This document shows, piece by piece, positions 15,666 to 21,121 of a DNA stretch of 64,000 nucleotides; position 1 is the first letter of the stretch; each line of letters opens with the position of its first letter. Source of the DNA: Ruficoccus amylovorans. Its GTDB lineage: Bacteria > Verrucomicrobiota > Verrucomicrobiia > Opitutales > Cerasicoccaceae. The notes under the pieces are model-generated. The model made no database searches. It was not told where the DNA came from and was given only the letters and a program-made list of their open reading frames with translations. The stretch lies in NCBI RefSeq assembly GCF_014230085.1, contig NZ_JACHVB010000025.1:1-64000 (forward strand), in the 5' to 3' direction. A program made the translations under genes and the position numbers.

Positions 15666-16526
15666 TCATTGTTCAACCGACAGCTTCGGCAGGATGCGGG
15701 TCACGAGCTTCAGGCCGGCGACCGGCTCCACACATTCGACAAAGATCGTGGCAGAGCCCTCCATCCCGGTACGATTCTCCCCGACCTCGGAAGCCACCGC
15801 ATAAACATTGAGCGGGACATCCGCCTGGAAAATCAGCGTGTAGCCCGCCGTCTCCACCACGGTCCCGACATTTTCCTCCGACACGGTGATTCCCCCCGCA
15901 CCCTTGACCAAAGTCGCAAAGATAAAGGCACTGCGCTTCCCCAGACGAACGGCCACTTCATCGACAATCCGGATTTCGCTCCCGGCCTGCCAGAACAGAT
16001 TCCGGTCCCACTGGGAAATGTCCGGGTCAGCCAGCGTCAGATCCAGATAAGCCTCGCCTCCCTTGTCGCCAATCTTGCGCACGTGCACCGGCATGTCCGC
16101 CGTCCCCTTTTGCGGCGAAACAACCTCCCCGCCTGCCATCCGCTCCGAAAGCGGCAGGAGCATATTGTTGCTCAGGACGTTTTGGTCCCCCCGGTTAAGC
16201 CCGAACGCACCGGACATGATTCTCACTCCGGTCGCGCCCCCCAACAAGGACAAGACCTCCGCCTCATCCTCCGGCCCTGACACCCAGGCCAGAACGACGG
16301 GCACCGCTCCCTTCGGAGCCGGTTCGTCCCGAAACAGCGCCCGGCTAAAACCACCCTCGCCCGCGACATAAATGTACTGGCTGACCGGGCTCGCCGTTGC
16401 CCCTTCGGCCGTCCCGGAATCGCCGGAAGCAAGATCGTTCGCGGTGGAGCCGTCTTCGGTGGGTTTACAGGCGCTCAAGCCCAAGAGCAACGACACAGCG
16501 AAAAACAACAACAGGCGAGGTATCAC
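15666..16526 (-). CDS. Putative lipoprotein of unknown function
   Basis: This is a 286-residue exported protein. Starting from the GTG at 16526 the N-terminus is a lipoprotein signal (IPRLLLFFAVSLLLGLSAC) with the lipobox LLGLSAC; the Cys should be lipidated. A low-complexity Ser/Thr/Gly/Glu linker follows, then a probably beta-rich domain with no motif I recognise. The longer open frame to 16655 adds 43 residues that do not look like a protein start. The stop is 53 bp from the MITE at 15454-15612. Confidence 0.7.
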   Translation of the reverse strand: MIPRLLLFFAVSLLLGLSACKPTEDGSTANDLASGDSGTAEGATASPVSQYIYVAGEGGFSRALFRDEPAPKGAVPVVLAWVSGPEDEAEVLSLLGGATGVRIMSGAFGLNRGDQNVLSNNMLLPLSERMAGGEVVSPQKGTADMPVHVRKIGDKGGEAYLDLTLADPDISQWDRNLFWQAGSEIRIVDEVAVRLGKRSAFIFATLVKGAGGITVSEENVGTVVETAGYTLIFQADVPLNVYAVASEVGENRTGMEGSATIFVECVEPVAGLKLVTRILPKLSVEQ

Positions 16527-16980
16527 GACAGGCAGTGTGCCGGGCCAGGCCTGAAAAGGCAATGGGATAAGCGCCGCGCATCTTCCCCCTCCGTACACGC
16601 TGTTCGCAAACAGCAATCGCCCTGCTTCGGCTTCTTTACCCAAGGGAATAAACACCCCCGTCTCTCCTCTCCCAGTATAGATGAATGTGATTGCCAGGGT
16701 CCATGCCAGTCCGCACCTTCTGCTGCACGGGCACAGTCAGCACCACGATCCTTTGCTTTTATGTAAAATAAATGCTAAATTGGCGGCAAGTACGCTCATT
16801 AGCTGTTTTTCACCTATATCCAAGAGCTACTGGGTAGGGTTTTTGCTTTATTTGGAAAAAATAAAAATATTACACTTAAACCCGACATCAATCTGACGAT
16901 TAACAAAAAACAGGGGTAAACTCTCGTTTCACCCTTTGGGTATTTATAGGCCAATCAATCTTTCGAGCAAAATAACTGAT
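16527..16980. other. Divergent intergenic region, AT-rich
   Basis: The 454 bp between the lipoprotein gene (minus) and the surface-protein gene (plus) contain no supported gene. The right half (from about 16750) is clearly richer in A+T than the coding surroundings and probably holds the promoter of the gene at 16981. I could not pick a convincing -35/-10 pair. There is no clear Shine-Dalgarno before 16981. Confidence 0.5.
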
Positions 16981-17799
16981 ATGAAATTCAACCTCCTCAA
17001 GACCACTTTCGGCCAGGCCGGCGTCGCCGCCGCCGCGATCTTCGGGTTGACCGCTGTTGCCAGCGCTACGCCGGTGTCGTTCACGTTCGATAGCTTTACA
17101 AAGTCTTCGACGATCAACACCAACATGGGCAAGCTCTACGTGGGCACCATCAACCTCACCTTTCTGGACGAGTCCAGCACGATGACTCCGATGCAAACGG
17201 TCGCCTTCTGCGCCGAGATCGAGCAGGTCATCAGCGTCGGCAGCACCTACACCAATTACCAGACCTACAGCCTGACCGATCCGGCCGGGCTGGCGCTCAG
17301 CGAGGCTCAGGCCCGCAATATCGCCATCTTGTACGACAAGTACTACCCGACCAACCAGGATCTCAGCTCCTGGAGCCAGGAGGACGCCGGCGCCTTTCAG
17401 CTCGCCTTGTGGGAGCTGATCTACGACGACGACGGTATCTGGGTGAACAACGGACTCTCGGACGGCAACTTCCAGGTCAGCGTTGATGACCAGCCGGCCA
17501 CGAATGGCCCCCAGCGCGAGCGTAATACCGTCAACCAGGCCAAGAACTACCTCAACTACGTCAATTCCGAAGCCCAGAACGGCAACAACTATCCGTATCC
17601 CGATCTGGTTTCCATCGTCAGCCCGACCAATCAGGATCTGATCGTGCTCGGCATCGCCATCCCCGAAGGTGGCGGCGGCTCGCCGGTCGCGGTGCCCTTC
17701 GGCGTCAATCCGCTGCCCGGCCTGGCGCTGATCGGATTCTTCGGCTGGCGTCGCCTGCGCAAGCGTATCAACGCCCGCAGCGAATCCGAACAGGCCTGA
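16981..17799 (+). CDS. Exosortase-type surface protein with thioester-like domain
   Basis: The 272-residue exported protein begins with a signal peptide (FGQAGVAAAAIFGLTAVASA, cleavage near residue 30). The mature part has the pattern seen in many PEP-CTERM-type surface proteins: VAFCAEIEQVI, then an ILYDKYYP stretch, then AGAFQLALWELIYD. Cys plus the FQ Gln may form an internal thioester in related families. The C-terminus has a tripartite sorting signal: VPFGVNPLPGLALIGFFG followed by WRRLRKR. It lacks PEP and instead resembles the PFEFSPGLG-type tail of cyanobacterial exosortase substrates. It should be a cell-surface or matrix protein processed by an exosortase, which is not in this window. 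An HpsJ-like gene follows. Confidence 0.75.
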   Translation: MKFNLLKTTFGQAGVAAAAIFGLTAVASATPVSFTFDSFTKSSTINTNMGKLYVGTINLTFLDESSTMTPMQTVAFCAEIEQVISVGSTYTNYQTYSLTDPAGLALSEAQARNIAILYDKYYPTNQDLSSWSQEDAGAFQLALWELIYDDDGIWVNNGLSDGNFQVSVDDQPATNGPQRERNTVNQAKNYLNYVNSEAQNGNNYPYPDLVSIVSPTNQDLIVLGIAIPEGGGGSPVAVPFGVNPLPGLALIGFFGWRRLRKRINARSESEQA

Positions 17800-17869
17800 G
17801 CCTCACGCTCAGTAATAAAAGGTTGTAAGTCGTAGGGTTTCCGCCTACCTAGCCAGATAACCGCTAGGA

Positions 17870-18628
17870 ATGAAAGCACTTACCCAACGCCTGAAGCAAT
17901 TCTACCGCCCGCTGGAGATCCAGGAGGGCGAGCCCAATCCGCTCCCTATCGTGGGAGCGGCCTTGGTTTTATTCGGTCTCTTTCAGTACGCGTACATCAT
18001 CTACCCGCTTCAGCCGGGAAGCGCCGACTGGGAATTCCTCACGATCAAGGCGCTGGTTGACAACGCCTTCACGCCCATCCTCGGTGTCGCGCTGTTTTTG
18101 GCCGGCTACACCATTGAGCTGCCCCTGTGGCGGCTGGCCGGGGCTCGCATCCTGACCTGGTTCAGCCTCGTCATGGCGGTGATCTTCGTCCTGCTCATGC
18201 CCCTGGCCGTCAATGACGCCCTGCGCCTGAGCAATGGCATGAACGCCCGCATGGCCACGGCGCAGAACATCTCCGCCACCCAGCAGCAGAAAGTCCGCAA
18301 GGCCCTTGACAACGCCACTAGCATGGAGGAACTGGAAATGCTCACCACGGTGCTGAGTCTGACCCCCTCTCTGGAGCAGCGTGCCCGGCAAATGCCTAAA
18401 GACTCCTTCGTCGAGCGCCGCGAGTGGCTCTGGGAAACGATCAAGTCCAACCAGAAGCGCATGCTCGATGAGACAAAGTCGCTCTTCAGCGCGAACAAGA
18501 CCACCCTGCGCAAGGATACGCTCAAGTGCGTCGGCGGGAGCGCCTTCGTCGCCGCGGTTTACTTTTACTTCTTCTTCGCCTTCCGCCGCGTACGTAGGAA
18601 GTACCGCCTGATCCAGGACGACGAATAA
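17870..18628 (+). CDS. HpsJ-like membrane protein
   Basis: The 252-residue protein has three N-terminal membrane helices (about residues 28-48, 66-84 and 94-114), a long charged helical loop (115-218) and one C-terminal helix (219-238). The pattern SADWEFLTIKALVDNAFTPILG, then LFLAGYTIELP, then LLMPLAVNDALRLSN closely follows cyanobacterial HpsJ, a protein tied to hormogonium polysaccharide and often found with exosortase-type sorting. This assignment is from remembered family pattern, not a search. It lies 70 bp after the surface protein with a PFE-like tail, which supports a joint role in surface or extracellular polymer formation. Confidence 0.6.
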   Translation: MKALTQRLKQFYRPLEIQEGEPNPLPIVGAALVLFGLFQYAYIIYPLQPGSADWEFLTIKALVDNAFTPILGVALFLAGYTIELPLWRLAGARILTWFSLVMAVIFVLLMPLAVNDALRLSNGMNARMATAQNISATQQQKVRKALDNATSMEELEMLTTVLSLTPSLEQRARQMPKDSFVERREWLWETIKSNQKRMLDETKSLFSANKTTLRKDTLKCVGGSAFVAAVYFYFFFAFRRVRRKYRLIQDDE

Positions 18629-18662: not shown

Positions 18663-18698
18663 TAAAACTCCCGCCCATCTTTGAGCGGGAGTTTTTTT
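18663..18698 (+). terminator. Rho-independent terminator after the HpsJ-like gene
   Basis: AAAACTCCCGC and GCGGGAGTTTT form an 11-bp stem around CCATCTTTGA, followed by a T run. It closes the two-gene unit 16981-18628. Confidence 0.88.
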
Positions 18699-19219: not shown

Positions 19220-19648
19220 TCAATCCTCCTCCGGCAGAGCGGAGATGTTCGCCTTGCGCATGGTGAATGTATTGGTTTCGTCAATACGCCGGTACTCGAT
19301 GTGATCCATCAACTGCTTGCAGAAAAAGATGCCCAGCCCGCCGATGGGGCGCTCCTCCAGCGGCGCGTCGATGTCCGGCTCCCTGGCGTCGTGGAGCGGG
19401 TCAAAGGCCTTGCCGTGATCGCGAATAACCGCCTCCACCTCGTCGCCGATCAGTTTCATAGAGAGGTAGATATGATGCTGGGCGGGCACCTCGTAGGCGT
19501 AGGAGATGATGTTGGTCAGAACTTCGTCCAGGCAAAGGTTGAAGGTGTGGACGAGGGCCGGGTTCAGGTCGTGCGCCTCGCCGAAGCGCTCCAGGTCGGC
19601 GGCCAGTTGGTTGAGTTCCTTGACGTCGTTGATGTAGGTAAAGTCCAT
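19220..19648 (-). CDS. RsbW-type serine kinase/anti-sigma regulatory factor
   Basis: The 142-residue single-domain GHKL ATPase (HATPase_c_2) is of the anti-sigma/serine kinase type used in partner switching. The N box is LCLDEVLTNIISYAYE, the G1 box AVIRDHGKAFDP, and the G2 box PIGGLGIFFCKQLMD. Such proteins either bind a sigma factor or phosphorylate a STAS-domain antagonist. It lies 80 bp downstream of an RsbU-type phosphatase on the same strand and is probably co-transcribed. A STAS protein is encoded at 41602-41937, not adjacent here. Confidence 0.85.
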   Translation of the reverse strand: MDFTYINDVKELNQLAADLERFGEAHDLNPALVHTFNLCLDEVLTNIISYAYEVPAQHHIYLSMKLIGDEVEAVIRDHGKAFDPLHDAREPDIDAPLEERPIGGLGIFFCKQLMDHIEYRRIDETNTFTMRKANISALPEED

Positions 19649-19728
19649 CGCGGCAGAGAGTATCGGGTCAGGTGAAGATAGTTTTACGAAAATGAGAGAA
19701 GGCCGGGGCTCCGGTATGGGGACAGCGT

Positions 19729-20931
19729 TTATTTGAAAATGATCTCCATGAGGGAGAAATCATCCTCGAAGGGGTCGCGGCCCTGAGCGCGGCGCACCCA
19801 GTCAACCATACTGGCGACCTTGCTTTTTCCCTCCTCGGGGGGGAGGCACAGGCCCGCGCCGAACTCCTCCTCGGTCATCATGCCGTGCCCGTCGGCATAA
19901 TCGACCTCGTACACGCCGTCACTGAAGACATACAGGGTGCTGCCGGACGGCACCTGCGTGCTGTCTGTGGTGAAGGGCGCACCGGGCATCCCGCCAATGA
20001 CCATCCCCGGCGTGAAGAGGGTTTCAAGGGATTCCTGCGGCCGGGCCGGATCAGTGATGAGGACGGCGGGCGGATGGCCGCCGGAGGAAAACTTCAGGGT
20101 GCGCGTGGGGCGATGGAAAACCCCATACCAGAGCGTGAAGTACATCTGGTTGTGCTTGTCCATGTCGAAGGCCTCGTTCAGCCCCGAGAGCACCGCTCCG
20201 GGATCGCGAAAATCCACCCCCGGCAGGGACTGCGCGCGCAGCACGTTGATGGCCGAGACCGAGTGCAGGGCCGCGCCGACACCATGTCCGGTCACGTCGA
20301 GCAGGTAGATGGCGAAGTGCTCGTCGTCGAGGTCGTGATAGCCGAAGGTGTCCCCGGCCAGGTCGGAGGAGGAGATAAAGACCCAGTCCGTCTTGACCAG
20401 GTCGTTCTCCATCGGGTCCGGAAAGAGCGAGCGCACGTAGCGGGCGGCCTCCTCCAGCTCCGCCTGGAGCGCGGCCTCCGCCTTTTTGCGCTGGAGCAGG
20501 TTGAGGTAGCCCTTGGAGTGGTAGCGGATGCGGGCGATCACTTCCAGCTTGTCCGGCAGTTTGACCATGTAGTCGTTTGCGCCCAGCTCGAAGGCTTTCT
20601 TTTTCGTCTCCGGCTCCTCCTTCGAGGACAGGACAATCATCGGCACCTCGCTAGTTTCGGCCTTGGCCCGGAAGAACTTGACCAGCGTCAGCCCATCAAT
20701 GTCCGGCATGACCAGATCCTGCAAGATCACGGTCGGCTTGATCTCCAAAGCGGTTTCAATGGCCTTGGCCGGGTCGTTGATCGAGTGAAAGGCGATGTCC
20801 GGCTCCCCGGCGAGCATGCGGCGCACGGCCTCGCAGACCATCGCCTGGTCGTCCACCATCAGGACTTTGATGGCCGGCTCCTGGCCGGGGCTGTCGGGCG
20901 TATTCAAGGCCTGAGTGAGAGCGTCCTTCAT
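19729..20931 (-). CDS. Response regulator with PP2C-type (RsbU/SpoIIE) phosphatase
   Basis: The 400-residue protein has two domains. An N-terminal receiver (about residues 20-140) carries the acidic pair (VLMVDDQAM), phospho-Asp (ILQDLVMPDIDG), Thr/Ser (IVLSSKEE) and Lys (DYMVKLPDK). A coiled linker rich in E/A (KKAEAALQAELEEAARYVRS) follows. The C-terminal SpoIIE-type Ser/Thr phosphatase has SSDLAGDTFGY, LLDVTGHGVGAAL and SDGVYEV metal sites. Such proteins dephosphorylate a STAS antagonist when the receiver is phosphorylated. I chose the ATG at 20931; the upstream frame to 21036 runs through an inverted repeat. It pairs with the RsbW-type gene downstream. Confidence 0.9.
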   Translation of the reverse strand: MKDALTQALNTPDSPGQEPAIKVLMVDDQAMVCEAVRRMLAGEPDIAFHSINDPAKAIETALEIKPTVILQDLVMPDIDGLTLVKFFRAKAETSEVPMIVLSSKEEPETKKKAFELGANDYMVKLPDKLEVIARIRYHSKGYLNLLQRKKAEAALQAELEEAARYVRSLFPDPMENDLVKTDWVFISSSDLAGDTFGYHDLDDEHFAIYLLDVTGHGVGAALHSVSAINVLRAQSLPGVDFRDPGAVLSGLNEAFDMDKHNQMYFTLWYGVFHRPTRTLKFSSGGHPPAVLITDPARPQESLETLFTPGMVIGGMPGAPFTTDSTQVPSGSTLYVFSDGVYEVDYADGHGMMTEEEFGAGLCLPPEEGKSKVASMVDWVRRAQGRDPFEDDFSLMEIIFK

Positions 20932-20975
20932 GAGCGCGGATTGAAACGGCCCACACCGTTCACGGCAAGGATAAG

Positions 20976-21121
20976 AGTTTGAGAGTTTGGGGTTTGAGCG
21001 TTTGAGAGTTACGGTGAAAAACGTGAAGACGGGCATGAAAACAGAACTGTTTTGTAAAAAAAGCTGCCCCGCAGCGTAGCAGCCGCCACCTTCAAACTCT
21101 CAAACCCCAAACTCTCAAACT
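20976..21121. repeat. 23-bp perfect inverted repeat with 100-bp spacer
   Basis: The left arm (20976-20998, beginning AGTTTGAGAGTTTGGGG) is the exact reverse complement of the right arm (21099-21121). Near-repeats of TTTGAGAGTT extend the left arm to 21009. The spacer holds a small palindrome (AAAACAGAACTGTTTT, 21038-21053) and a GC-rich stretch. It lies between the divergent phosphatase and rpmB genes, so it is part of the promoter region of one or both. Confidence 0.85.

Follow-up and report, generated by a model that had tools for sequence, protein, structure and literature searches.

The DNA considered here, a stretch of 64,000 nucleotides from Ruficoccus amylovorans (Verrucomicrobiota) which is called the window in the following, contains a unit of two genes (Table 1). 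The first gene encodes PFE1, a predicted exported protein which ends with the sequence AVPFGVNPLPGLALIGFFGWRRLRKR, and the second one encodes HpsJ1, a membrane protein of the HpsJ_like_A family. According to hydropathy, the N-terminal hydrophobic stretch of PFE1 comprises residues 9–32, and HpsJ1 possesses hydrophobic stretches near residues 27–45, 59–84, 94–112 and 218–238, the last two being separated by about 100 residues. The unit is closed by a terminator-like hairpin, as had been described in an initial annotation made from the letters alone; a simple terminator scan with a loop limit of 8 bases does not list this hairpin. The G+C contents of PFE1 (0.61) and HpsJ1 (0.60) are close to the value of the window (0.62) and thus give no sign of a recent import. 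Upstream of PFE1 a lipoprotein-like ORF without NCBIfam or Pfam match is located on the reverse strand (15666–16655), and two ORFs resembling it are found at the corresponding place of the genome G128 (L019:2288–4197). Downstream of the pair, also on the reverse strand (19220–21036), two ORFs are present, one resembling an RsbW anti-sigma kinase and the other a response regulator/PP2C phosphatase; both were named by reading of the sequence. The same RsbW-like and PP2C-phosphatase-like neighbours follow PFE1 and HpsJ1 in G128 (L019) and G152 (L050).

Table 1 Features of the PFE1–HpsJ1 unit (positions are those of the window)
Feature	Position	Strand	Details
PFE1, predicted exported thioester-domain protein with PFE-CTERM tail	16981..17799	+	272 aa
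Predicted Sec signal peptide of PFE1	16981..17067	+	residues 1–29, from sequence; putative cleavage site after ASA, before TPVSF
Thioester-domain-like passenger of PFE1	17068..17655	+	Cys77 (FCAE, 17209–17211), Gln140 (AFQLALWE, 17398–17400)
PFE-CTERM sorting tail of PFE1	17689..17769	+	PF motif, hydrophobic stretch, WRRLRKR; NF050011 and own-tail HMM
HpsJ1, HpsJ_like_A membrane protein	17870..18628	+	252 aa; NF050013 and hydropathy
Intrinsic-terminator-like hairpin, then T run	18664..18694	+	−19.2 kcal/mol, z −6.3

The tail of PFE1 matches the NCBIfam model PFE_CTERM (NF050011) with 33.6 bits over residues 237–262 of 272 (cut-off 24), and in a search of the own genome the tail site reached 36.7 bits. 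In 14 control genomes no match of this model above the cut-off was detected. The genome of the window also contains 29 PEP-CTERM tails (TIGR02595, E ≤ 0.01), but neither PFE1 nor the second PFE-tail protein of this genome, PFE2, belongs to them; a PEP variant was set aside for this reason, and the tail of PFE1 is not a PEP tail. HpsJ1 reaches 146.1 bits with HpsJ_like_A (NF050013, described as 'cyanoexosortase A-associated'; cut-off 140) and 98.3 bits with HpsJ_fam (NF038305; cut-off 60). Both proposals of the initial annotation, a tail of the cyanobacterial PFE type and an HpsJ-like second protein, have therefore stood up to the HMM searches. The pair of PFE1 and HpsJ1 is kept in all four genomes of the genus, with intergenic gaps of 70, 200, 64 and −4 bp.

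Three exosortases are encoded in the 4.5-Mb genome of the window. Two of them (contigs C34 and C20) are members of other classes with the EpsH family and XrtA as best models, whereas the third, a protein of 327 amino acids encoded near 156 kb of contig C63, has cyanoexosortase A (TIGR03763) as best model. TIGR03763 is the top model for all four HpsJ-linked verrucomicrobial exosortases scanned, with 69.3 (genome of the window, G000), 70.6, 62.1 and 48.5 bits, all below the curated cut-off of 150; a fifth enzyme (G128), compared with TIGR03763 alone, reached 64 bits. Because this cut-off is not attained, the label CrtA is withheld from the C63 enzyme and it is called CrtA-like. It matches the superfamily signature TIGR04178 (37.3 bits, cut-off 23), and the catalytic triad C189, R234 and H252 is invariant in the five HpsJ-linked verrucomicrobial enzymes. 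In all five genomes a further HpsJ gene, HpsJ3, is located directly upstream of the CrtA-like exosortase, whereas HpsJ1 adjoins a substrate gene; HpsJ3 of the genome of the window reaches 66 bits with NF050013 (cut-off 140). The same contig C63 carries, near 96 kb, a second pair in which the PFE2 gene is followed by HpsJ2. HpsJ2 is above the cut-off of NF050013 (151.4 vs 140 bits), and the tail of PFE2 is below that of PFE_CTERM (15.9 vs 24 bits). The search for an exosortase and for more proteins with the same tail, which had been recommended together with the first description of the locus, was thus successful on both points. Since the genome also has 29 PEP-CTERM tails, the PFE pathway is a small second pathway beside the PEP-CTERM system.

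The distribution of the three components was determined in ten genomes of the family. HpsJ occurs in five of them, comprising all four of the genus and one of another genus, and PFE_CTERM matches above the cut-off as well as the HpsJ-linked exosortase were found in exactly these five; with a loose limit (E ≤ 1) some PFE_CTERM match appears in all ten. An HMM of the verrucomicrobial tails, built from ten of the 14 tails which it finds, is confined to the same five among the ten genomes. Nine of the 14 tails adjoin HpsJ, one adjoins the exosortase, three stand alone and one is a partial weak match. In evenly drawn samples of the phylum, HpsJ was detected in 2/145 and 3/387 genomes, all of the genus of the window, and the CrtA-like exosortase in the same three of the 387. 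The co-occurrence across Verrucomicrobiota, proposed earlier as a check, is seen for all three components within the family and for HpsJ and the exosortase in the sample of 387 genomes. Scans of viral contigs with the exosortase and HpsJ alignments gave no match. The stand-alone PFE-tail genes of sister genomes (L067:832–1587, L068:790–1590 and L069:838–1614) have no HpsJ neighbour, and those of L067 and L068 are thioester-domain paralogues. A further PFE-tail/HpsJ pair (G151 contig C47, L056:74–2208) consists of an unrelated passenger of 407 amino acids and a very divergent HpsJ.

The five genomes contain 14 HpsJ genes, nine of which adjoin a PFE-tail gene and five the exosortase. With 14 of 14 genes placed in this way, a chance neighbourhood of PFE1 and HpsJ1 was set aside. 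One could still argue that HpsJ is no sorting partner but an unspecialised small membrane protein belonging to loci for surface polysaccharides, which came to lie near these genes by chance, as its NCBIfam name alludes to hormogonium polysaccharide and many glycosyltransferases are present at the HpsJ locus of Halotia branconii. However, the verrucomicrobial HpsJ genes adjoin PFE-tail genes or the exosortase only, and in the stretches read no exopolysaccharide cluster was found beside the modules. Furthermore, overlaps of 4 bp between PFE1 and HpsJ1 in G151 and between HpsJ3 and the exosortase in G149 point to coupled translation. That HpsJ is such a bystander is regarded as unlikely.

Somewhat less likely still is the idea that the general PEP-CTERM exosortases encoded on C34 and C20 simply read the PFE tail as one more of their signals, while the CrtA-like enzyme and HpsJ serve otherwise, for example in exopolysaccharide formation. 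Three exosortases and 29 PEP-CTERM tails do coexist in the genome, and PFE1 has relatives with PEP tails in other parts of the phylum. On the other hand, in the five genomes of the family that lack HpsJ, general exosortases are present but PFE tails above the cut-off are absent, each of the 14 HpsJ genes is linked either with a PFE-tail gene or with the CrtA-like enzyme, and the PEP-CTERM model does not pick up the PFE tails.

The components of this pathway were otherwise met in Cyanobacteria. In a tblastn search of 72,556 plasmids with HpsJ1, HpsJ3 of G149 and the exosortase as queries, one record was obtained with each query, and it was the identical plasmid of Halotia branconii, in which HpsJ is located directly before a cyanoexosortase-A fusion gene. 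A scan of named genomes with two short HpsJ motifs, which detects only HpsJ proteins bearing both motifs and may miss other phyla, matched 65 stretches. The 23 loci confirmed among them comprise two from Verrucomicrobiia (G151 and G149) and 21 from Cyanobacteria. Of the cyanobacterial loci, 17 include an exosortase, which in seven cases directly follows HpsJ, in agreement with the claim of the initial annotation that HpsJ is linked to such systems in Cyanobacteria. The exosortases themselves point in the same direction. When an HMM was built from the five verrucomicrobial enzymes, 18 cyanobacterial HpsJ-linked exosortases scored 54–78 bits and eight other exosortases of the family 6–37 bits; the reverse, cyanobacterial HMM gave 81–111 vs 30–50 bits for the others. 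In a midpoint-rooted tree with long branches the eight others were apart from the verrucomicrobial and cyanobacterial HpsJ-linked enzymes (100/100), and the grouping was unchanged when three long rows were removed. In the unrooted tree the three groups radiate from a single point, so that the tree alone is no proof of a verrucomicrobial–cyanobacterial sisterhood, and the reciprocal HMM scores, the gene order and the distribution are therefore relied on as well. The HpsJ tree places HpsJ1 beside the HpsJ of heterocystous Cyanobacteria (82/87) and HpsJ2 and HpsJ3 apart from it; the AU test does not reject a single clade of the verrucomicrobial copies (p 0.3). The history of HpsJ1 may be separate from that of HpsJ2 and HpsJ3.

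From the restricted distribution and the closeness of the HpsJ-linked exosortases a transfer is likely, and the cyanobacterial-type pathway was probably acquired horizontally. The former suggestion of a sorting system 'acquired or shared' in this lineage fits these data as far as the event itself is concerned; direction, date and number of transfers are not implied. It would be a poor fit to assume that both phyla inherited HpsJ, PFE tail and CrtA-like exosortase from their ancestors and that the three were lost nearly everywhere else. The deep divergence with 20–30 % identity and long stems speaks for this view, as does the HpsJ tree, which does not nest every verrucomicrobial copy within Cyanobacteria and leaves a single verrucomicrobial clade unrejected. 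Nevertheless, with HpsJ limited to one genus in both phylum samples, near-universal losses would be needed, and the scan of named genomes added Cyanobacteria only. Such a common inheritance is considered improbable, and horizontal acquisition is preferred.

The passenger of PFE1 is a finding beyond the earlier description: it is predicted to be a thioester domain. Mature PFE1 contains one cysteine, which lies in FCAE, and a glutamine in AFQLALWE. Both residues are invariant in ten of ten aligned relatives, in which the context of the cysteine is [FY]C-x-[EQ], with Ser or Thr at the third position of the motif in some. The published motif of thioester domains (TED) is [YFL]C-hydrophobic-hydrophilic and PFE1 agrees with it (PMC8092201). 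With the Pfam TED model (PF08341; cut-off 22) the orthologue of G128 reached 22.3, two paralogues 21.3 and 20.7, G152 18.2 and G151 13.1, and PFE1 of the window had no match. Searching the PDB sequences with a profile of PFE1 gave nothing credible and a tblastn search of the plasmids with the thioester domain of G128 no match. AlphaFold2 modelled the domain from ten sequences with a pLDDT of 75.8 and a pTM of 0.79. The whole mature protein modelled from six sequences had a pLDDT of 49 and the Foldseek matches of that model are meaningless. Using the domain model, Foldseek placed thioester chains only 16th and 18th, with weak E values (0.6–0.8). In VIA-align the top 11 rows were all solved structures of thioester adhesins (Z 10.1 to 7.7, 142–168 aligned residues), followed by a row with Z 3.0. 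The marginal or missing Pfam matches and the middling model confidence would suit a structural domain of other use which looks like a thioester domain without forming the bond, but the single mature cysteine in its motif together with the invariant glutamine and the gap below the 11 adhesins make this quite unlikely. On the basis of the model and these residues, PFE1 is predicted to be a thioester-domain (Cys-Gln) adhesin, the bond itself being putative.

Relatives of the domain were found by HMM in 7/387 genomes of the phylum, four of them outside the genus. All of these four end in IPEP tails, of which two pass the Pfam PEP-CTERM model, one is under its cut-off and one has no match; they are encoded at L130, L131, L132 and L133 in other families of the Verrucomicrobiota. 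Exosortase-tailed thioester proteins may hence form a wider class.

Taken as a whole, the pair is likely to represent the substrate arm of a dedicated cyanobacterial-type exosortase pathway in a verrucomicrobial family, with a CrtA-like enzyme as processor, HpsJ1 as partner and a glue-type thioester adhesin as cargo. By analogy with exosortase systems (PMC12188702), whose products act in adhesion and biofilm formation, PFE1 would be exported by Sec, retained in the inner membrane through the PFE-CTERM tail and then cut or transferred at the PF motif by its cognate exosortase, for which the CrtA-like enzyme of C63 with HpsJ3 directly upstream is the likely candidate. HpsJ1, made from the same unit, is most likely a membrane partner which would escort PFE1 to the exosortase or further on towards the surface, and HpsJ1 and HpsJ2 are each the likely partner of their own neighbouring substrate. 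Delivered to the surface or into the extracellular matrix, the domain would act as a glue-type adhesin in which Cys77 and Gln140 form an internal thioester that covalently binds amine-bearing ligands. Several points speak against this reading. The two other exosortases of the genome could process the PFE tail, and the CrtA-like enzyme reaches only 69 of 150 bits; however, the genuine HpsJ-linked exosortase of Halotia is also under the cut-off (114.6 bits). Further counterpoints are the CrtA-associated C-terminal domain missing from the CrtA-like enzyme, the low score of HpsJ3 in the genome of the window, the PFE2 tail below its cut-off, the modules without an exopolysaccharide cluster beside them in the stretches read, the absence of a Pfam TED match in PFE1 and the weak Foldseek ranks. 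A more far-reaching reading is put forward tentatively and with slightly less than even confidence. It assumes that the whole module of PFE-CTERM tail, HpsJ and CrtA-like exosortase was transplanted into the Verrucomicrobiota, that the HpsJ belonging to each substrate is a substrate-specific exosortase partner, and that the module displays covalent thioester adhesins, while their relatives in the phylum still bear PEP-CTERM tails. The passenger would then have been kept, and the address label and the delivery machine exchanged.

In the literature searched, nothing was found on PFE-CTERM by name, on HpsJ joined with an exosortase or on a thioester domain joined with PEP-CTERM. Taken singly, the parts belong to a curated family or come close to one; in contrast, this literature did not yield a full set of them in non-cyanobacterial genomes, a separate HpsJ for every substrate or an exosortase tail attached to a thioester passenger. 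Nor is a molecular role assigned to HpsJ in the sources consulted. A small non-photosynthetic group carries a full sorting kit which was otherwise met in this analysis only in Cyanobacteria. As HpsJ stands one to one with a PFE-tail gene or exosortase and the genome of the window has only two tail proteins, the role of HpsJ can be tested in a system much smaller than the cyanobacterial one.

Among the known systems, the CrtA/HpsJ_like_A system of Cyanobacteria (TIGR03763, NF050013) is similar in that HpsJ is located directly upstream of the exosortase, HpsJ is above the cut-off, and the verrucomicrobial and cyanobacterial exosortases are each other's best-scoring counterparts in the set compared. 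It differs in that the verrucomicrobial copies of HpsJ are paired with individual substrate genes and have no adjacent polysaccharide cluster in the stretches read; unlike CrtA of Halotia, the verrucomicrobial exosortase lacks the CrtA-associated C-terminal domain and is below the CrtA cut-off. The PEP-CTERM/EpsH (XrtA-type) systems share the exosortase superfamily and the layout of the tail, but have another tail class and another exosortase clade, and the HpsJ partner is particular to the pathway described here. In Nostoc punctiforme an exosortase of cyanobacterial class, cyanoexosortase B, serves surface adhesion, and deletion of crtB abolished motility and biofilm formation (PMC12188702). 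This enzyme is of the CrtB class, unlike the CrtA-like one, and the description of its locus lists polysaccharide genes along with a CrtB-associated protein and makes no mention of HpsJ (PMC12188702). Thioester adhesins of this glue type are best known from Gram-positive bacteria, and with these (Cpa, SfbI, TIE proteins; PF08341) PFE1 shares the predicted fold, the [YFL]C motif and the conserved glutamine. However, it has an exosortase-type tail instead of an LPXTG sortase signal and a single short domain without Cna-type stalk. The occurrence of thioester proteins with exosortase-type tails, PFE as well as PEP, suggests covalent adhesion by diderm bacteria in which no sortase anchors the protein.

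The motif of the PFE-CTERM family is worded PFE, as in the name of its model. PFE1 resembles this family (NF050011) in its C-terminal PF motif, hydrophobic stretch and Arg/Lys cluster, but PFG, PFD or PFN replace PFE in the verrucomicrobial tails and the passenger is a thioester-like domain. Proteins with PFD/PFN-type tails, unnamed by PFE_CTERM, are also found near HpsJ on the Halotia plasmid and at the loci L093 and L094. On the Halotia plasmid (L085:6735–17328), four proteins with a tail of the PFDIPGGATIP type are grouped around HpsJ and the cyanoexosortase; their tails are possibly a further subclass.
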